Shown in pieces: positions 2,009 through 12,465 of a stretch of DNA of 64,000 bases. The DNA is taken from assembly GCA_947449735.1 (NCBI GenBank), contig CANFTB010000017.1, positions 1 through 64,000 of the forward strand. The letters are read 5' to 3'. The notes under the pieces are model-generated. The model was not told where the DNA came from. It saw nothing but the letters and a program-made list of their open reading frames with translations, and searched no databases. Source of the DNA: Chthoniobacteraceae bacterium. GTDB taxonomy: Bacteria; Verrucomicrobiota; Verrucomicrobiia; Chthoniobacterales; Chthoniobacteraceae. The position numbers were made by a program, and so were the translations under genes. Position 1 is the stretch's first letter; every line of letters begins with the position of its first letter.

Positions 2009-3625
2009 TTACTTCGAACGGGGCTGGACGCGTTTCCGCAAGACCTCGTCCAGCACCCGGAAGACCCCCTCCATCCCCTCGGGAGACGACTCGCCGGCGT
2101 GGCGCAAGCGCAAGCGCCCGTCGGGGCCGACCACCATCACCTCGATATTCGCGCCGGGCGTGCACAGGCCGGGGAAGGTCTGCGCCTCCCAGTCCATCAG
2201 TACCGGCCAAGGGGTGCCGTCCCGAATCATCAAACGCACCGCGCCCCTGAAAAGCTGGGGAATGCCCCGCACATCCGCCAACCCGAAAATCTCAACCTTG
2301 TCTCCGTAACGTTCGACCACCGGCTTCACCCATCCCCCCACCTTGCCCGTGCCTGAACGCGTCGACGCCACGATGTACACAGGCCGCTCCCTCGGAAAAC
2401 GAATCTCGTGGCGCACCCCGTGCTGGTCCTCCAACACCACCTCCGGACACCGCGCCTGCTCTGCCGCGAGCGCCGCGCCGCCGCTCAACCCCAGACAGAG
2501 CAGCCCCACCAGAGTACGCCCACGCCACCCCACAGGTTTCCCCAACCAAAAGCGCGCGGCGCCGTACCACTGGTTCAGCAAAAGAACCCCCACCGCCAAC
2601 GGTTGCAGCAGCACCCCGCTGAGCGGGTGGCTGAAACGCAAGGCCAGAATAGCCCGTGCAGCCCACGCCCCCAACAACGCGACAAACGCCCAGACCGCAC
2701 CAAAGCGGGAGAGGCTCCCCTCCAAAAGAGCGAGGAGCGGAAACACCTGTCCAAAAAACAAAAGCAGGCTGAAGGGAACCACAGACCCCGGCGAGGCCAG
2801 CCCTTCGTGCGCGTTTTTGGCAAAACCACGCCAGACCTCTCCAAACCCGGAATACATCCGGCACACGGCCACGTCTGTTGCGTCGAAAAGGTCCGTCACC
2901 CTTCCCTCCCTCCGAAACGCACGCGCCAACGCGAGCCCCTCATGAAAACTGCGTGTCGCCCGCGAGTGCCCGCCCACCTCCATATAACTGGATCGGCGAA
3001 ACAGCATCAACTGACCGCACGCAGCGGCAAAGCGCGGATCGCTCGAGCGCCTCATCCGTTCCATCGGCAGAAACCCCAGCAGCACGAAGTGAATCTGGGG
3101 TACAATCATCACCTCTGAAAGCGTCTCCACCTTCTGCAAAGGAACGCCGCTCAACAGATCGAGGTCGCCGCGAGAAAAAGCGGCGGCCATCCGAGCCAGG
3201 CTGTCGCCCCCCCGCAAACGCACATCCGCGTCCATGAACAACAACACCTCCCCTTTCGCGGCGTTTGCAAGACTCCAACAACCGAAGGGCTTGCCCGCCC
3301 ACCCCTCGGGAGGCGGACTGCCGGCCACAAACCGCACCCGGGGGTCGCGCGCCTCAATCTCACTCACGATTTCCGCCGTCCGGTCACTGGACCCGTCATC
3401 CCACACGAGCACCTCCACCTCCACCCCCTCGCACCCCAGAACAGACTCCACCGCCAACCGGATATTCGCTTCCTCATTGCGCGCTGGAATCAGCACCGAA
3501 ACGCTCGGCAGCTTCCGCAACACTGGGGGGGGCAGCCGCCTGTAATGGCGCAAATTGGAGACGATCAACCCAGCCGGCAAAAGCGACGCAGCGCAGCACA
3601 ATACCATCCATCCGGCATCCATCAT
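2009..3625 (-). CDS. crtQ: Carotenoid-type family 2 glycosyltransferase (CrtQ-like) with C-terminal thioredoxin-like domain
   Basis: A 538-residue protein starting at ATG 3625, which overlaps the acyltransferase stop by 4 bases (ATGA). Residues about 4-22 form a membrane helix. A GT2 catalytic domain follows, with LIPARNEE (45-52), DDGSSD (76-81) and MDADV (131-135), then further membrane helices at about 283-302, 308-328 and 337-352. This arrangement matches CrtQ-type enzymes that glucosylate carotenoid carboxylates. Unusually the protein continues: residues 370-388 resemble a signal or membrane segment, and 391-530 read as a thioredoxin-like fold ending in VVGPDGRLRLRHAGE, with the usual CxxC position occupied by STRSGTG. 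The tail is therefore probably not a disulfide reductase. It is the last gene of the carotenoid operon. Sugar and acceptor are inferred from context. Confidence 0.82.
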   Translation of the reverse strand: MMDAGWMVLCCAASLLPAGLIVSNLRHYRRLPPPVLRKLPSVSVLIPARNEEANIRLAVESVLGCEGVEVEVLVWDDGSSDRTAEIVSEIEARDPRVRFVAGSPPPEGWAGKPFGCWSLANAAKGEVLLFMDADVRLRGGDSLARMAAAFSRGDLDLLSGVPLQKVETLSEVMIVPQIHFVLLGFLPMERMRRSSDPRFAAACGQLMLFRRSSYMEVGGHSRATRSFHEGLALARAFRREGRVTDLFDATDVAVCRMYSGFGEVWRGFAKNAHEGLASPGSVVPFSLLLFFGQVFPLLALLEGSLSRFGAVWAFVALLGAWAARAILALRFSHPLSGVLLQPLAVGVLLLNQWYGAARFWLGKPVGWRGRTLVGLLCLGLSGGAALAAEQARCPEVVLEDQHGVRHEIRFPRERPVYIVASTRSGTGKVGGWVKPVVERYGDKVEIFGLADVRGIPQLFRGAVRLMIRDGTPWPVLMDWEAQTFPGLCTPGANIEVMVVGPDGRLRLRHAGESSPEGMEGVFRVLDEVLRKRVQPRSK

Positions 3626-4416
3626 GGCATTGAGTGATTTAACGCCGCCCGCTCCCCCCTGAACGCAGCCTTCAACCGCCGCCACAGGTCGTACGGAACC
3701 GAGGCCCCCCCGGCACCCTCCAACATCACCCTGAAACTTTCAGGAGTCCTCAGGCACACACGCTCGCGCAACGCCTCCTGGCACTCCTCCAGCGCATCCT
3801 GCAAAGCGCACTGCGCTCCGTCCGCACCGGTGCCCAGGGCAGCGCCGGAAAGCCCTCCGCCAAACCTCAGAAAAATCTCGGGCAGCCGTTCGTCCCCAAA
3901 CCCGTACTCGACCGCAAGCGGCACATACACCGCCCCCGGAAGCCTGGCCGCCAGGTGCGCCATCCCGGGCGCAAAACGCACCGGCCTTTCCCGCGCATCC
4001 GCGAACCTGCCCTGCGGCGTCAGCCACAGCATCGCCCCCCGGCGGGAAAGCACCTCCTGCGCGGTGCGCAAAAAAACCCGGGCGCCCGACGCAGTACCCT
4101 TCTCCACTCCAAAGATCCCCAAATGCTTAAAGAAACCGTACCGCTGCAACTGGCTGGCCTCGATCGGACCGTACTGATCCCGCCCCGGATACGCGTTCGC
4201 CCCCAGCCACAGCATCAGCAGCGGATCCCACCAGGAGGAATGGTTGAGGTACACCACTGCCGACGTCCCGGGATCCAGCACCGGGGGCAGGCCGCTTAAA
4301 TCCACCCGGACTGAATGAAACTGCCGCCCCATGCTCCAGTCGATGTAGCGGAGAAAAGGCTTCAACACCCAGGGGAGAATCCTGGGGGCGCCCGTTTGCT
4401 GGAGTCTCGCAGTCAT
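3622..4416 (-). CDS. crtO: PlsC-superfamily acyltransferase, CrtO-like
   Basis: A 264-residue acyltransferase with the glycerolipid-acyltransferase signature H-x4-D in NHSSWWDP (near residue 57) and the second conserved block TPQGRF near residue 134. In staphyloxanthin-type pathways an enzyme of this role (CrtO) esterifies a fatty acid onto the sugar of the glycosyl carotenoid; the family also includes phospholipid acyltransferases. The assignment to carotenoids comes from its position: it begins 17 bases after the end of a CrtN/CrtP-type gene and overlaps the glycosyltransferase start by 4 bases. It has no strong membrane helix, so it is probably a peripheral membrane enzyme. Confidence 0.8.
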   Translation of the reverse strand: MTARLQQTGAPRILPWVLKPFLRYIDWSMGRQFHSVRVDLSGLPPVLDPGTSAVVYLNHSSWWDPLLMLWLGANAYPGRDQYGPIEASQLQRYGFFKHLGIFGVEKGTASGARVFLRTAQEVLSRRGAMLWLTPQGRFADARERPVRFAPGMAHLAARLPGAVYVPLAVEYGFGDERLPEIFLRFGGGLSGAALGTGADGAQCALQDALEECQEALRERVCLRTPESFRVMLEGAGGASVPYDLWRRLKAAFRGERAALNHSMP

Positions 4417-4433: not shown

Positions 4434-5978
4434 TCAGGCCACCGCCGGCGGGGCAACCTGGCCGACTTCACCGTCGGCGTCCAGGGCGTCGGCGGCGATC
4501 CAGCCGCTCATCAACGCCATCGGCATGCCTGGTCCGGGATGGGCCGAACCTCCCGCCAGATACAGGCCCTTCACGTCGGGGCTGCGGTTGGAAGGCTTGA
4601 AGGTGCCGTTAAAGCGGCCGTGACTGGCAAGACCGTAAATGGCCCCGTTCAAGACCTGGTACCGGTCCTGGATGTCCTTCGGTGTCAAAATCCGCTCCGT
4701 CACGATGCGTTCCTCGAGGTCCTCGAGTCCGGCGGTGCGCTTGAGCTTTTCCAAAATCACGCGCCGATAGTCGGGCAGGAGCGACTGCCAGTCCTGGCCC
4801 GGCCGCAGATACGGAGTGTGCACCAGAACGTACAGCGCCTCGCCACCCTCCGGGGCCACGCCGGGCTCTGTCACCGCGGGAGCGCAAACGTAGCAGGTCG
4901 GGTCCGGCGCCGGGACGCCCTCGTCGTAAATGGCCTTGAACTCGACATGCGGGTCCTTGCTGAAAACAAAATTGTGGTGCAGCAGATGTTCGTACCGCTT
5001 CTTGAGCCCGAGGTAGAGCACCACCCCGGAGCACGCCGGTTCGTAGCTGCGGCGCCTCTGGAAGTCACGCGAGGGCTTTCCGCTCAACAGATCGCTGTGG
5101 GTGAGCACGGTGTCGCGGTTGGACACGACCGCCGAAGCGGCAATGCGCTCCCCGTGCGTCGTCTCCACTCCCACCGCCCGTCCGTTTTCCACGAGGATGC
5201 GCCCCGCGGAAACGCCGGTGCTGATCTCCACGCCCAGCTCGAGCGCCAGCTTCCGGAGCGCGGCCGGCACCGCCGCCGTTCCCCCTATCGGATACCACAC
5301 GCCCTCCCCCGACTGCATGTGCGCGATTCCGCACAATACCGCGGGCGAAAGCTCCGGCGAAGAGCCCACATACTGGGTGTAGTGGTCCAGCATCTGAGTC
5401 ACCTTTTCATCCGGCACGTAGGAGCGCAAAAGCCCCGAAACCGTCTGCCCCAAACGGATCGACAGCACGTCCTGCAGGGAGCCCGGTCGCAACAGATCCC
5501 GAGCCGAAAACATGTCGAACATCTTACCCACCGGTTTCCAGAAATAGACCCGGTGGGAAATCTCCGCCTGCACCTTCGAGAGCCCCAGAAAACGCCTGTA
5601 CCCGTCCCCGCTTCCCGTTCCGGGCGAAAACGCTTCAATCCGCTTTTCCATCGCTCCCACGTCCGCCACCAGATCGAGGGTGGACCCGTCCTCGAAAAAA
5701 CTCCGCCACTGCGGATCCAGACGCACCAGCTCCAGGCACTGCTCCAGCGAACGCCGGGCCTCCGAGAAAATCCGCTTCAACACGGACGGCACGGTCACAA
5801 TCGTGGGCCCCATGTCGAAGCGAAAACCTTGGTCTTCGTGGACAGCCGCCTTGCCTCCCAGCCACGCGTTGGTTTCCAACAGCCTGACGCGGTAGCCCCG
5901 CGCCGCGAGCGTACACGCAGCGGCCAGACCTCCCAGGCCTCCCCCAATCACTACAACCGGACTCGTGTTTGACTTCAT
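4434..5978 (-). CDS. CrtN/CrtP-type carotenoid desaturase or oxygenase
   Basis: A 514-residue FAD-dependent amine-oxidase-fold enzyme. The N-terminal dinucleotide motif is VVVIGGGLGGLAAA (about residues 8-21), followed by GGKA and FRFDMGPT blocks, and the C-terminal FAD-contact motif is YLAGGSAHPGPGMP. It is of normal length for bacterial phytoene/diapophytoene desaturase relatives. The ATG at 5978 is chosen because it places the FAD motif at the N terminus; an upstream in-frame start would add a poorly conserved basic tail. As the second such enzyme in the operon, next to an aldehyde dehydrogenase, it is a candidate for the terminal-methyl oxidase (CrtP role) acting on a C30 polyene, but the sequence does not prove which of the two paralogues does which step. 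Confidence 0.85.
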   Translation of the reverse strand: MKSNTSPVVVIGGGLGGLAAACTLAARGYRVRLLETNAWLGGKAAVHEDQGFRFDMGPTIVTVPSVLKRIFSEARRSLEQCLELVRLDPQWRSFFEDGSTLDLVADVGAMEKRIEAFSPGTGSGDGYRRFLGLSKVQAEISHRVYFWKPVGKMFDMFSARDLLRPGSLQDVLSIRLGQTVSGLLRSYVPDEKVTQMLDHYTQYVGSSPELSPAVLCGIAHMQSGEGVWYPIGGTAAVPAALRKLALELGVEISTGVSAGRILVENGRAVGVETTHGERIAASAVVSNRDTVLTHSDLLSGKPSRDFQRRRSYEPACSGVVLYLGLKKRYEHLLHHNFVFSKDPHVEFKAIYDEGVPAPDPTCYVCAPAVTEPGVAPEGGEALYVLVHTPYLRPGQDWQSLLPDYRRVILEKLKRTAGLEDLEERIVTERILTPKDIQDRYQVLNGAIYGLASHGRFNGTFKPSNRSPDVKGLYLAGGSAHPGPGMPMALMSGWIAADALDADGEVGQVAPPAVA

Positions 5979-6004
5979 ATTCTTTGTTTCTCTTTTTCTC
6001 TTTT

Positions 6005-7489
6005 CTAAGTGCCGGCGCTTCGCGCGGAAAGCCCCTTGCGCACCACCTCGCAAAATGCCCGAAATCTGGTGCCGAATCCCCTCCCGTAAAGCATCCGAGC
6101 CAGAGCGGAAACCATGGCAACCCCTGGCCCGGCTTCAGCCAGATGGGTCGTTCCGCCTCCACTCCTCGTCTGGACGACCTTGATCCGCGTCAGCTCCAAA
6201 AGCCCCTCCGCACCACGGGTCACGCCGTACCCGCTGCGCCCCGCGCCCCCGAAGGCGATCCGCGGATCCGCGCTCGGGACGATTAAATCATTCACCGAAA
6301 CCAGGCCGCACCGGACACCCGCCGCCATGCGGGCGGCAGCGTCGGCGTCGCGTGAAAAAATCGAGGCGCCCAGAGCGAATCCGCACTTTGACGCCAGTTC
6401 CAAAGCCTCAGCGTCGGAGTCCACAGCCATGATCCCGAGCACCGGGGCGAACACATCTTCCGCAAACAGCCGCATCCCGGGGCTGGCATCCGCGACCACG
6501 CAGGGAAGTTGGATTTCGCCCGAGGCATCCGGTCCCCCGTGGACAAACCGCGCGCCGCCCGCAACCGCATCCCTCAGGACCTCCCGCAAAGCCCCGACCC
6601 GCTCCCCAGACCAACCGCTACACGAAAGAAGGCGCCTAGACGCCGCCAACCCGCTTTGCAGCAACCGCTCCAATTCGCCCGAAACGCTCCTTGCCACAAA
6701 CACCCGTCTCGGCGCGAGGCAGGTCCGGCTTTCGTTGAAGGTGAGCCCGAAGCGCAGCGCCTTTGCGACCAGAGGCAAGTCAGCGTCGCTGCGAACAAAC
6801 ACAGCGTCGCACCCGGAAAGCTCCAGCACCACCGGAACCAGGTTGCGCGCCAGCCTCGAGGCCACGTCCACCCCGTTCGCATGCCCGCCGGTGAACACCA
6901 CCTTGTCCACCGCCGATTCCACCAGCACCCGCCCGCATTCAGCAGCCTCGGGCAGGACTTCCAGCACGTGCTCGGGCAACCCCGCCTCGAAAAGCAGCGA
7001 GGCAAAAAAGCCCGCCACGCGCCCGCCGCCCGGAGCAGGCTTCCAAACGACCGCATTTCCCGCAACCAGCGCCTGCACCACCGAAACGGCCCCAAGAAAC
7101 AACGGATAGTTTCCGGGTGAAACCACGGCGACCACGCCGAACGGTTCCCGGTACTGGACGCTCCGCACCCCCGGCAGCCAGAGAGGCCGGCCGCGCTGAC
7201 CGTAAGAAACCGGCTTCAACAAATCCGCCGCCTGACGCTCCAAAAAACGGCAGGCCTCCAGAAGCGGCAGCACCTCCGCGAGAAGGACTTCTTCGACCCC
7301 GTGTCCGTCGGACACCCCAGCAGCAGCGAGTTCCTCAGCGCACCCGGCGGCCAATTCCCGAAGCAAACGCACGACCCGCAACCGGCGGCTGACGCACTCC
7401 CCCCCCCATTGCCCCTGAGCCGTCCGCGCGCGCGCCACGGCGGCCTCCACACCAGCCTCCTGCCCGGTGGTCGCCGCGCCCAAAGTCAT
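6005..7489 (-). CDS. Aldehyde dehydrogenase, probably carotenoid-aldehyde oxidising
   Basis: A 494-residue NAD(P)-dependent aldehyde dehydrogenase. Visible landmarks are SPGNYPL with the oxyanion Asn, the cofactor-loop VFTGG, LELSG with the catalytic Glu, and SRTCLAPRR with the catalytic Cys. In staphyloxanthin synthesis an enzyme of this family converts the C30 carotenoid aldehyde to the carboxylic acid that is then glycosylated, which fits its position between the two desaturase-like genes. The ATG at 7489 is preceded by GGAGAG at good spacing; a TTG at 7513 is less likely. Its leader is the only long gap of the operon (226 bases) and carries a hairpin and the GGGGAC repeat tract, so its expression may be set separately. 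The C-terminal 60 residues lie beyond the core domain and are of unknown role. Confidence 0.88.
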   Translation of the reverse strand: MTLGAATTGQEAGVEAAVARARTAQGQWGGECVSRRLRVVRLLRELAAGCAEELAAAGVSDGHGVEEVLLAEVLPLLEACRFLERQAADLLKPVSYGQRGRPLWLPGVRSVQYREPFGVVAVVSPGNYPLFLGAVSVVQALVAGNAVVWKPAPGGGRVAGFFASLLFEAGLPEHVLEVLPEAAECGRVLVESAVDKVVFTGGHANGVDVASRLARNLVPVVLELSGCDAVFVRSDADLPLVAKALRFGLTFNESRTCLAPRRVFVARSVSGELERLLQSGLAASRRLLSCSGWSGERVGALREVLRDAVAGGARFVHGGPDASGEIQLPCVVADASPGMRLFAEDVFAPVLGIMAVDSDAEALELASKCGFALGASIFSRDADAAARMAAGVRCGLVSVNDLIVPSADPRIAFGGAGRSGYGVTRGAEGLLELTRIKVVQTRSGGGTTHLAEAGPGVAMVSALARMLYGRGFGTRFRAFCEVVRKGLSARSAGT

Positions 7490-7518
7490 AGCACTCTCCG
7501 GTGAACGCCCCAAACCAT

Positions 7519-7564
7519 CCCCGTCCCCGTCCCCGTCCCCGTCCCCGTCCCCGTCCCCGTCCCC
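7519..7564 (-). repeat. Hexanucleotide tandem repeat (GGGGAC)7 in the aldehyde dehydrogenase leader
   Basis: Seven exact copies of CCCCGT on the plus strand plus a final CCCC, 46 bases with no mismatch. On the transcribed sense it reads GGGGAC, giving eight runs of four G separated by two bases, which is strong potential for a G-quadruplex in the mRNA. It ends 30 bases before the ATG at 7489. Short exact tandem repeats of this kind can also change copy number by slipped-strand mispairing. The unit length of six would not shift a reading frame, so an effect would act through leader structure or spacing. Confidence 0.95.
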
Positions 7565-7689
7565 GCAAGCCGACGCCCCGTCCGAGCGAACCTTCCGCGG
7601 TCCCCCCGGACGCGAAAGGCTCCCGAAACGGGACGGCGGCTTGCGGGGACCATGGGCTTCTGCAACCCAAGATCCAGCCTGTCTGAATC

Positions 7690-7714
7690 GCTAATGATCA
7701 TCGCAAACATTAGC
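7690..7714 (-). other. Intercistronic hairpin right after the CrtN-type gene
   Basis: A perfect 7-base inverted repeat, GCTAATG and CATTAGC, with an 11-base loop, begins one base after the TAA stop at 7716-7718. No T-run follows, so it is not a standard intrinsic terminator. Its position fits an mRNA 3' stabilising or processing element, or an attenuator ahead of the aldehyde dehydrogenase leader. Confidence 0.55.
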
Positions 7715-7715
7715 T

Positions 7716-9673: not shown

Positions 9674-10642
9674 ATGGCGGCTGTGATCCCCGTTTCCATC
9701 AAGACCGTCTCAAGACGCACCGGACTCACTTCGCACGTGATCCGCGCGTGGGAACGCCGCTACCAAGCCATCGAACCCGAGCGTTCCCAAGGTCGCCACC
9801 GGAAGTACACAGAGCGCGACGTCGAACGGCTGAACCTGCTCACCCAGGCCGTGCGGACCGGGCAGCTCATCAGCCGGGTGGCGAAGATGAGCAATGAAGA
9901 GCTCCGTTCCATTCTCGAAAACGCCATCCCGGACACCCAGAAAGGACTGCACTCAGAAGCCCCCCCCGAGTCCGGCGCCCTGATCGAAGCCGCCTGGCAC
10001 CAGACCCTTGACGCCATCCGAAGCCTTGACGCGCACCGTTTTGATTCTGCCCTTCAAGGCGCCCTCATTTCCCTGGGAGATCAGGGGGTTTTGCGCCGGT
10101 TCATCGCCCCCATGGCCCGGACCGTCGGAGCTCTTTGGCACACCGGCAGGATGACAGCGGCGCAGGAACATTTCTTCACCGCCAGCGCTAGAGCGTTCAT
10201 TTGGAACATCACACGCCAGTACACGGTCGACGAGTCCGCCCCGAGAATCGTCGTGGGGACCCCCTCTGGACAACTCCACGAACTCGGCGCGGTGATCGCG
10301 GCCGCAGCCGCGGCGAACGCCGGATGGAAGGTGGCCTTCATCGGGCCAAACCTGCCCGCGTTCGAACTCGCCGGCGCCGTCCAGACCGTGAATGCGAACG
10401 TCCTTCTGCTGAGCCTCGTTTACCCTGAGGACGACCCGAAGCTTCCTCAGGAGTTGAAGAGCCTCAAGCGCCTGCTTCCGCCCCACGTGAGCGTCATTAT
10501 CGGCGGACGCGCCTCCTCCGCCTACCTCGACACCATCCAAAAAATCGGAGCCACCCTGCTCTCGAGCCTCGAAGATCTGGACACAAACCTGGACAGACTC
10601 AGGAAAGCCTCCTTTCGCGCCGGAGCGCCAAGCGGCCTTTAA
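9674..10642 (+). CDS. carH: CarH-type MerR/B12-binding photoreceptor regulator
   Basis: A 322-residue regulator. Residues about 8-75 are a MerR-type helix-turn-helix (RAWERRY, RKYTERDVERL), 100-180 a helical B12-capping domain, and 188-310 a Rossmann-like cobalamin domain. The CarH light-sensing signature W-x9-EH is present as W155, E165 and H166, and the lower axial His occurs as H202 in LHELGA. In characterised CarH proteins adenosylcobalamin keeps a tetramer bound to DNA in the dark; light breaks the Co-C bond, the tetramer falls apart and carotenoid genes are expressed. The gene is divergent from the carotenoid operon, and a shared-promoter inverted repeat lies between them. No ribosome binding site is evident. 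SRPBCC follows after 12 bases. Confidence 0.9.
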   Translation: MAAVIPVSIKTVSRRTGLTSHVIRAWERRYQAIEPERSQGRHRKYTERDVERLNLLTQAVRTGQLISRVAKMSNEELRSILENAIPDTQKGLHSEAPPESGALIEAAWHQTLDAIRSLDAHRFDSALQGALISLGDQGVLRRFIAPMARTVGALWHTGRMTAAQEHFFTASARAFIWNITRQYTVDESAPRIVVGTPSGQLHELGAVIAAAAAANAGWKVAFIGPNLPAFELAGAVQTVNANVLLLSLVYPEDDPKLPQELKSLKRLLPPHVSVIIGGRASSAYLDTIQKIGATLLSSLEDLDTNLDRLRKASFRAGAPSGL

Positions 10643-10654
10643 AGCGTCCGACAC

Positions 10655-11140
10655 TTGAAAACAAACCACACCAAAATCCGATGGGAACAATGGATCCCCG
10701 TCGCCCTGCCCGAAGTGTTCAGCTTCTTCTCGGACGCACAAAACCTTGAGAAGGTCACCCCTCCCTGGGTCGGGTTCCGGATCCTCACCCCGCTTCCCAT
10801 CCAAATGGCGGTGGGAACCCTGATCGACTACGAGGTCAAACTGAGAGGCATCCCCATGCACTGGCGTTCTGAAATTACAGAATGGGATCCCCCGCGGAGC
10901 TTCGCCGACCGGCAGCTCAAGGGCCCCTACGCCTTCTGGCTCCACACGCACTCCTTTGCGGAGAAGGACAACGGCACACTGGTCACCGACGACGTCGAGT
11001 ACGCCCCGCCGCTCAGCTGGGTGCCCGGCGCGTCGCTGGTGAACCGCTGGTTCGTCCGGCCCGAATTGAACCGCATTTTTGAACACAGAAAAGCCGCCCT
11101 CCGCAGCCACTTCGGCCTACCGCCTGAGCGGGCGCTTTGA
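10655..11140 (+). CDS. SRPBCC-family ligand-binding protein
   Basis: A 161-residue START/Bet v 1-like protein (the family annotated as polyketide cyclase/dehydrase or coenzyme Q-binding), with typical elements PVALPEVFSFFSDAQNLEKVTPPW near the N terminus, a mid-protein DYEVKLRGIPMHWRSEI strand pair and a C-terminal long helix. The fold binds hydrophobic molecules such as isoprenoids or lipids. The start is a TTG 12 bases behind the carH stop with no other good start nearby, so it is probably translated by coupling to carH. The context suggests a role linked to carotenoids or light stress; the ligand is not known from the sequence. Confidence 0.8.
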   Translation: MKTNHTKIRWEQWIPVALPEVFSFFSDAQNLEKVTPPWVGFRILTPLPIQMAVGTLIDYEVKLRGIPMHWRSEITEWDPPRSFADRQLKGPYAFWLHTHSFAEKDNGTLVTDDVEYAPPLSWVPGASLVNRWFVRPELNRIFEHRKAALRSHFGLPPERAL

Positions 11141-11268
11141 AGTCTGAGCCTCCCACCCGCCCAAACTCCACCAACAGCACGATTGCATCCACCTCCCCGT
11201 CTGGGGCTGAATTGCCGGCGGCGGCCTCCAACGCAGACCCTTTTCAGAATCCGCATCGAATTTTACTC

Positions 11269-12465
11269 ATGAACGAAATCAACCGATCCCTGCCCCCGGC
11301 TGCCCCGCTCCTAAACGACTACAGCGGCCGCGTATTCCCCGAATTCAGCCTGACCCGCCTCCTGCGGACGGTCTTCACCCCAACCGAGGGAGCCAAAGTT
11401 TGCATCCTCATCGACCTTCCGGATCCGGCCCTTATGAAGGACTACGCTTTCCTCTCAAACACGCAGTTCACCATCCAGCGCAACGCACACGAGGTCTTTT
11501 ACAAAGGCCTCCAAAACGGCGGCCTCTCCGAACTCGGCATGTCGGGCGGGGAAATGTTCGCCTACGAACTCACCGGCGGCAGCAACCTGGACCTCCCCGA
11601 AACCGCGGTGAACGCCGCGGGCGCAGTCGTCTCCTTCAAGGAGGCCGTCTACACGAAGTACGACCTGATCCTGTGCGTCTCCACCTACTCGGCCACCGCG
11701 CCGCTGACCGCGTTCGCGAAGGAGTACGGTTTCCGCGGCGCCACGCTGCACGGCCTGAACGAGACCATCCTGCGCACGGGCCTCTCTGTGGACTACAACG
11801 AGGTCAGCGTCCTCGCCGAACGCTTCCGCAAGGGGCTCACCTGCGCGGACCGAGTGGAAATCGACTTCACCGTCGGTGAGGAAAAGGCGACGCTCCGCCT
11901 GGAACTCGCAGGGCAGGAGGCCCAAAAGAGCCACGGCCTCTGCCCGGGAACCGAACCGGACGTGGCGAACCTCCCCGCTGGAGAGGTCTATTTCGTGCCG
12001 GTCGGCGCCGAGGGCCATTTCCCGATGAAATACGAAGACGGAACGCTGGCGATGATGCACGTCACCGGCGGGCGCATCGTGAGCGCGCGGCTCATCCGCG
12101 GAAACGCCGCCGTAGTTGACGCCCACAACGCCAAGCTTCAGTCGGATCCCGTCACCGGGGAACTGGGTGAACTGGGCTTTGGAACCCAGGAACTGCCTCC
12201 GAGCGGACGGGACATTCAGGACGAAAAAATCCTCGGCACCCTCCACGTCGCCACCGGACGCAGCGACCATCTGGGCGGAACGCTCACCCCCGACCGTTTC
12301 GCGAGCCGCCTGAACGCGACTCACGACGACGTTCTGTTCAGCTCCACGAAAACTCCGGAAATCAACGTCCCCCAGGCGCGCGTGTACAAAAACGGCGCGG
12401 TATTCCCCGTGATCGAAAACTACCGCCCGTCGGCTGAGGTGAAGGCCCTGCTCGCCGGCGCATAG
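11269..12465 (+). CDS. M29-like metallopeptidase family protein
   Basis: A 398-residue protein resembling thermophilic aminopeptidases of family M29 in its C-terminal half. The expected metal ligands can be traced as E239 (AGEV), E301 (GELGFGT), H326 (GTLHVATG), H352 and D354 (THDD). The family contains aminopeptidase T as well as the related ring-cleaving dioxygenase NicX, so the reaction could be peptide-bond hydrolysis or oxygen insertion. No signal peptide is visible. The ATG at 11269 fits the family N terminus better than an upstream in-frame start. The next gene, a histidine kinase, begins 52 bases downstream. The residues are seen; function is inferred. Confidence 0.65.
   Translation: MNEINRSLPPAAPLLNDYSGRVFPEFSLTRLLRTVFTPTEGAKVCILIDLPDPALMKDYAFLSNTQFTIQRNAHEVFYKGLQNGGLSELGMSGGEMFAYELTGGSNLDLPETAVNAAGAVVSFKEAVYTKYDLILCVSTYSATAPLTAFAKEYGFRGATLHGLNETILRTGLSVDYNEVSVLAERFRKGLTCADRVEIDFTVGEEKATLRLELAGQEAQKSHGLCPGTEPDVANLPAGEVYFVPVGAEGHFPMKYEDGTLAMMHVTGGRIVSARLIRGNAAVVDAHNAKLQSDPVTGELGELGFGTQELPPSGRDIQDEKILGTLHVATGRSDHLGGTLTPDRFASRLNATHDDVLFSSTKTPEINVPQARVYKNGAVFPVIENYRPSAEVKALLAGA

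Follow-up and report, generated by a model that had tools for sequence, protein, structure and literature searches.

The gap upstream of the aldehyde dehydrogenase (ALDH) gene in the 64-kb window, the 64,000-nucleotide stretch of Chthoniobacteraceae DNA analyzed here, holds two adjoining features: a G-rich hexamer repeat that appears to be ordinary and, beside it, a hairpin that apparently represents an undescribed structured RNA, with a function that we infer below from sequence comparison across the genus. As this pair suggests, a conspicuous repeat can distract from a neighbor that is far better conserved, and a hairpin arm may seed a microsatellite. The reading that we tentatively favor, with somewhat less than even confidence, is that the repeat is a microsatellite private to one species and that the conserved hairpin lies within a translated short open reading frame (ORF), where it would set the output of ALDH. 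Both the 92-nt hairpin, which shares six bases with the repeat tract, and the ORF running through the two were absent from the initial annotation of this locus.

Genomic context

The window comes from contig C17 of the source assembly, and the gap belongs to an operon of five genes on the minus strand. It separates the gene for ALDH (PF00171; 6005-7489) from the upstream gene for a crtI/crtN-type desaturase (TIGR02734; 7716-9296), here called crtN; the same operon encodes a second crtI-family oxidoreductase (4434-5981), an acyltransferase (PF01553; 3622-4416), and a family 2 glycosyltransferase (2009-3685), and a CarH-like MerR/B12-binding regulator (9674-10642, plus strand) is encoded divergently from it. 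At 226 bases (7490-7715), this is indeed the only long gap among the five operon genes, as the initial annotation had it, and a scan for simple sigma-70 promoters found no site within it. Placement of ALDH in a carotenoid acid branch, also proposed there, follows from the gene neighborhood only, and the 25 NCBIfam matches listed all fall below the curated cut-offs. The verrucomicrobia include Rubritalea squalenifaciens. According to PMC3967232, this species esterifies a C30 carotenoid diacid, an observation compatible with the pigment assignment but not proof of it.

A conserved hairpin in the gap

The hairpin (7559-7650, minus strand) is imperfect, spans 92 nt, and comprises 40 consensus pairs, a GGGG apical loop, and one bulged C. 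Folded alone, it has a predicted energy of -76.8 kcal/mol (z -9.1), and the stem is near-continuous and very stable (-65 to -82 kcal/mol) in the nine sequences folded with their flanks. Across these nine sequences (alignment A1, without G004, which contributes 28 bases at a contig end), 96.7% of the pair cells are paired (348/360), 11 of the 40 pairs have changed on both sides, and the RNAalifold table holds 10 covarying pairs. The covariation score was reached by none of 500 shuffles, and slid versions of the structure had 0-5 double-changed pairs, with the covariation and wobble cells not being independent because the genomes are related. A further 17 of the 40 pairs are invariant, as is the apical loop. 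The hairpin is thus well supported as a structured RNA under selection. Function most likely resides in the sense RNA because G-U cells on the sense strand far exceed A-C cells (58 vs. 3, with G006 left out of half of this comparison) and the sense fold beats the antisense fold by 14-25 kcal/mol in 9/9 sequences; the scores of covariance model R1, 83-103 bits on the sense strand vs. 31-51 bits on the antisense strand, were likewise ordered in 9/9.

The hairpin was shown to be conserved far above neutral sites. Among operon-bearing relatives, six (G011, G009, G005, G001, G007, and G003) have hairpins 80-85% identical to that of the source genome and a seventh (G006) has one 72.5% identical, whereas the fourfold sites of crtN in the same seven are 30-39% identical to those of the source genome. 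The spacer just upstream of the hairpin is 30-39% identical in 14 of 15 genome pairs, from which G000 (the source genome) and G006 were left out, and 67% identical in the remaining one, the sister pair G009/G005. Because fourfold sites within the hairpin, taken in the frame of the short ORF described below, are 75-89% identical (12/16 to 16/18) in all eight relatives, the constraint appears to act on nucleotides rather than amino acids. By this comparison, the hairpin, and not the tract, is the candidate functional element.

No Rfam family matched at gathering strength, the best match being 17.3 bits on the other strand (E 0.11) against a gathering score of 70. An intrinsic terminator was rejected, as the hairpin is followed on its 3' side by GGGGAC repeats with no U run and the sole terminator-like site in the scanned stretch lies elsewhere (7860-7843).

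Distribution of the hairpin

A DNA search recovered the hairpin in 10 of the 12 genus genomes, namely, the source genome, eight others with 78-87% identity over the matched stretch, and G004, where the 28 bases at the contig end were matched; the other rows of this search were matches to the end of crtN (G005, G007, and G011) and one G-rich stretch (G007:C34). With R1, matches were obtained in 9 of the 40 family genomes, all within the genus and at a single place each, and in 10 of the 213 genomes of the order, that is, the same nine plus a weak match in G507 (28.4 bits, E 0.0097). The latter was counted as chance, given that none of the 13 query proteins matched in the 10.2 kb around it and that its hairpin lacks the conserved core. 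In the phylum sample, to which stricter filters were applied, the source genome alone was matched (1/387). Across 54 sources (the window, 48 of the 80 loci, L131, L132, and L153-L155), R1 was strong only in the window, L021-L023, and L131, with weak matches of 20.5 bits to L090 and 17.7 bits to L032. Folds upstream of ALDH were also compared in a crude way against 30 mononucleotide shuffles for each sequence: z lay between -2.1 and 2.6 for 12 loci from outside the genus and was -1.6, -3.1, and -6.3 for three loci from within it, so that the ranges overlap. Searches of the open-access literature yielded no paper on such an element. The hairpin is apparently undescribed and restricted to this genus, the only one in which our searches found it.

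A short ORF through the gap

The gap is probably translated as a short ORF, a reading that is supported rather than proven and in light of which an empty leader was rejected as less likely. In the source genome, this ORF (7486-7701, minus strand; 71 aa) starts with ATG at +17, counted from where the crtN stop codon begins (another in-frame ATG lies at +8), passes through both the hairpin and the tract, and ends with a TGA overlapping the ALDH ATG as ATGA (7489-7486); its peptide is MIISDSDRLDLGLQKPMVPASRRPVSGAFRVRGDRGRFARTGRRLAGTGTGTGTGTGTGTGMVWGVHRRVL. The initial annotation had assigned the tract to an untranslated leader, which, given this overlap, is probably not where it lies.

Openness of the frame means little because, in each of the nine genomes, the hairpin can be traversed in two or three frames without a stop; the evidence lies instead in the fixed ends of the ORF. 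A start codon occurs at +15 from the crtN stop in six of the eight operon-bearing genomes (ATG in three and GTG in three), and the ORF is 62-76 codons long in seven. Its stop overlaps the ALDH ATG as ATGA in 5/8 genomes (G000, G011, G001, G007, and G003) and begins 9 nt (G005) or 8 nt (G009) before an ALDH ATG in another 2/8, the ALDH start in each genome being the one we infer to be used; such overlapping or near-overlapping stops and starts are the mark of termination-reinitiation pairs. G006 is ambiguous: there, the ORF crosses the hairpin in a different frame, whose stop overlaps just one of the six candidate starts of ALDH, with the candidate aligned to residue 1 of the window ALDH lying 56 nt further on. 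Readthrough of the crtN stop was also considered as the source of the short ORF. Six genomes have the short ORF in the crtN frame. The distance between the start of the crtN stop codon and the hairpin, which is 69 nt in 6/8 and 98 nt in G006, is however 68 nt in the source genome, so that simple readthrough fails there.

Possible roles of the hairpin in the operon

Operons with several enzymes per message need a means of setting their ratio, and the arrangement of the gap suggests one. Ribosomes finishing crtN would reinitiate on the short ORF, ~15 nt after the crtN stop, would have to melt the hairpin while on this ORF, and would then terminate at ATGA and reinitiate on ALDH. The hairpin would, in effect, be a fixed or regulated valve for the output of the genes from ALDH to the glycosyltransferase relative to the desaturase. 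In the source species only, the array would add a second obstacle, in the form of possible G-quadruplexes, together with (Gly-Thr)7, with the frame kept. Termination-reinitiation at overlapping gene pairs has been shown in H. volcanii and E. coli (PMC6728339). The likeness to those pairs is that the short-ORF stop overlaps the ALDH start in 5/8 genomes; the difference is that the upstream partner here is a short ORF with unconserved ends and a conserved hairpin inside. If this putative mechanism is correct, a sequence-constrained hairpin in a coupled short ORF would constitute an unusual ratio-setting device, and the hairpin sequence yields precise predictions that can be tested in the laboratory.

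A rather unlikely but substantial alternative is that the hairpin acts in intercistronic processing or stability, being cut by an RNase III-type activity or blocking 3'-5' exonucleases such that the crtN part of the message would persist longer than the ALDH part, the short ORF then being incidental. The high stability of the stem and its fixed position behind crtN in 6/8 genomes are consistent with such a role, for which the puf operon of Rhodobacter offers a precedent: the puf hairpin, for which Klug reportedly provided the precedent in 1987, makes one mRNA segment outlive the other. In both cases, a stable RNA hairpin lies between cotranscribed pigment genes, differing output being a proposal in the present case. 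Unlike in puf, the hairpin here seems to lie within a short ORF that is translated, and there is strong constraint on both its sequence and its loop. Such constraint is hardly required for a role in stability, yet the apical loop and 17 of the 40 pairs do not vary; processing also leaves unaccounted for both the ATGA junction in 5/8 genomes and the retention of the hairpin in two genomes without crtN, to which we now turn.

Retention of the hairpin without the operon

Neither crtN (at E 1e-60) nor ALDH (at E 1e-40) was detected in G004, G010, G002, and G008, of which G010 has a completeness of just 62%. Two of the four, G004 and G010, retain the hairpin (in G004, as far as the contig reaches) together with the carH side of the locus, and a remnant of the crtN tail is clear in G004 (0/300 shuffles vs. 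each of four tails) and, in G010, clear vs. one of the four. The shared part of the hairpin is 26/28 identical between these two genomes, compared with 41/66 positions upstream (p 0.0016). The short ORF of G010 ends 8 nt ahead of the ATG of the next gene, which follows the glycosyltransferase gene in 3/7 relative loci (L101, L105, and L106) and was not seen in L102 and L104, which reach ~1.5 kb past the glycosyltransferase. No hairpin was found genome-wide at E 0.01 in G002 and G008, where the best match is 9.5 bits on the carH contigs. A tree of three neighboring genes, which covers 10 of the 12 genomes because the stretches of G011 and G006 do not carry all three markers, groups G004, G010, G002, and G008 (support 91). 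The hairpin can therefore outlive the operon and can also be missing. As a separate observation, the loci of G004 (L132) and G010 (L131) have another, dissimilar small ORF in the interval from carH to the hairpin.

Survival of the hairpin in G004 and G010 is not predicted by a pure crtN-ALDH valve and leaves room for a wider role in two species that lost the operon. One version of such a role, to which we assign a low probability, is that of an undescribed class of regulatory RNA, a ribosome-read hairpin that has changed very little amid saturated neutral sites and has outlived the carotenoid operon in these species through a trans or next-gene role of its own, with the tract being a recent mutation of the regulator. 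Less probable still is that the element is an independent small RNA acting in trans, or one recognized by a protein of its own, and that its place in the operon is incidental. Persistence in the two operon-less genomes, with greater identity of the hairpin than of its upstream sequence, and occurrence at one place per genome in 9/9 matching genomes would suit a separate RNA. However, the element is always at the same locus, the comparison of G004 and G010 involves 28 bases only, the simple promoter scan of the gap found none, and the element is absent from G002 and G008.

An apparently species-specific G-rich repeat

On the minus strand, positions 7519-7564 read (GGGGAC)7GGGG, with eight GGGG runs separated by AC loops, which bears out the initial annotation of an exact 46-base tract on the mRNA-sense strand. 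In the tandem-repeat listing of the 64-kb window, it appears as a perfect period-6 array, (CGGGGA)8 (7518-7565, minus strand; 8.0 copies, 100% matches), the sole period-6 row among seven. Between the tract and the ALDH ATG (7489-7487) are 29 bases, close to the 30 originally given, and the tract lies 19 nt upstream of a Shine-Dalgarno-like GGAGAG (7494-7499). A perfect hexamer repeat of 46 bases is far beyond chance. The last six bases of the hairpin, GGGGAC, are at the same time the first unit of the array; because the 3' arm ends in this way, the array would have arisen most simply by repeated duplication of those six bases.

We read the tract as a probable microsatellite of this species alone, given that similar G-rich stretches occur elsewhere in 6 of the 12 genus genomes and that none of 56 relatives has the tandem repeat. 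At least three tandem GGGGAC units are found in the source genome (4.18 Mb, 67 contigs) at the tract locus only, and at least four in just 1 of 57 genomes, the source genome itself, being absent from all 56 relatives searched; on this ground, the tract was rejected as a conserved regulator. Seven other operon-bearing genus genomes lack the tract at the locus, so the operon of the genus is independent of it. Fourfold GGGGNN stretches, which differ from the tract in location and unit, resemble the microsatellites usual in G-rich genomes: among five inspected, that of the source genome lies between ORFs, three overlap ORF-like frames, and that of G007:C2 lies past the listed ORFs, close to the contig end. 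Matches to this pattern include a plain G run (G011:C138) and an irregular stretch (G006), and the control of the scan carries no weight because the reversed pattern is identical to the pattern itself and gives equal counts. The source genome also has a second array, (GGGGCC)n, at G000:C15:85153-85198 (L156), which is intergenic and in no obvious leader position.

The initial annotation read the tract as a contingency locus, or as an RNA G-quadruplex tuning ALDH, with copy number influencing pigment type, and we regard this as quite improbable. The RNA could, by prediction, form tandem G-quadruplexes: when these are allowed in ViennaRNA, the leader folds at -172.6 vs. -119.2 kcal/mol. Thus, this part of the proposal, with the strand correctly given, holds on paper, whereas the tract on which it depends is not conserved. 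According to PMC4692102, the heptamers GGGAATC (Xanthomonas) and GGGGACT/GGGGATT (Nostoc/Anabaena) form G-quadruplexes in vitro, with DNA (GGGGACT)3GGGG of Nostoc (Anabaena) origin reaching a T1/2 above 95 C in K+. The tract resembles these repeats as a tandem, short, G-rich, and predictedly G-quadruplex-capable array; those heptamers, however, are described there as occurring many times per genome, whereas here a single hexamer array stands beside a hairpin arm ending in GGGGAC. Same-form stretches lie at unrelated places, and the position upstream of the Shine-Dalgarno-like site speaks against tuning of ALDH as well. In the frame of the short ORF, the tract reads (Gly-Thr)7, and because the unit has six bases and lies inside an open frame, a change in copy number cannot shift the frame, so that a classical on/off switch is not expected. 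Compared with phase-variable contingency loci, the locus has neither the repeat in relatives nor a frame-shifting unit or, as far as the simple sigma-70 scan shows, a promoter-spacing position.

Coding potential of the hairpin region and the DNA palindrome

It is very improbable that the hairpin is a by-product of the codons for a small conserved Arg-rich protein (core ASRRPVxGAxRVRGDRGxFxRAGRRLA). In eight aligned ORFs, 16 core columns are invariant, although the peptide ends are not conserved, and a codon test inside the hairpin, with G006 left out, gave a weak synonymous excess that is suggestive only (synonymous fraction 0.373 vs. a null of 0.260, sd 0.071; p 0.056). Against a protein, fourfold sites are about as conserved as other sites; the changes at pair 38-62 preserve pairing while replacing an amino acid at each side, and those at 37-63 and 39-61 replace one at a single side; the RNA, but not the peptide, persists in G006; and Pfam has no family for the short-ORF peptide of the window. 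Among eight scanned members, two Pfam families gave one match each (best E 0.0038 and 0.15), which look like chance.

A palindrome acting at the DNA level, either a mobile-element remnant of the REP/MITE type or a protein-binding site, is scarcely credible, for although the 23-nt outer arms, 91% complementary, form an imperfect palindrome, the wobble pairs are strongly strand-biased, and an origin as a dispersed, plasmid, phage, or viral element was rejected with one place per genome in 9/9, no hairpin match in plasmids or phages, and no exact 20-mer of the core in viral contigs. Rickettsia palindromic elements occur in reading frames, and the hairpin resembles them as a palindrome read as part of an ORF, but it differs in occupying a single place per genome, at one locus, with no dispersal.

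Additional features of the locus

Draft contigs end within the hairpin (G004:C8, L132:1-28) and beside a G-rich array (G007:C2, L158:1504-1533), which suggests that such structures break assemblies. The glycosyltransferase (2009-3685) carries a C-terminal extension of ~150 residues that has no Pfam or NCBIfam match and is covered by tblastn alignments in each of the six operon loci with the gene; it may be thioredoxin-like. Beside carH, a 442-aa ORF (11137-12465) has no match in Pfam or NCBIfam at E 0.001 and is 71-78% identical in eight of nine aligned genus loci, the ninth (L153) aligning in two pieces of 60% and 74% identity.
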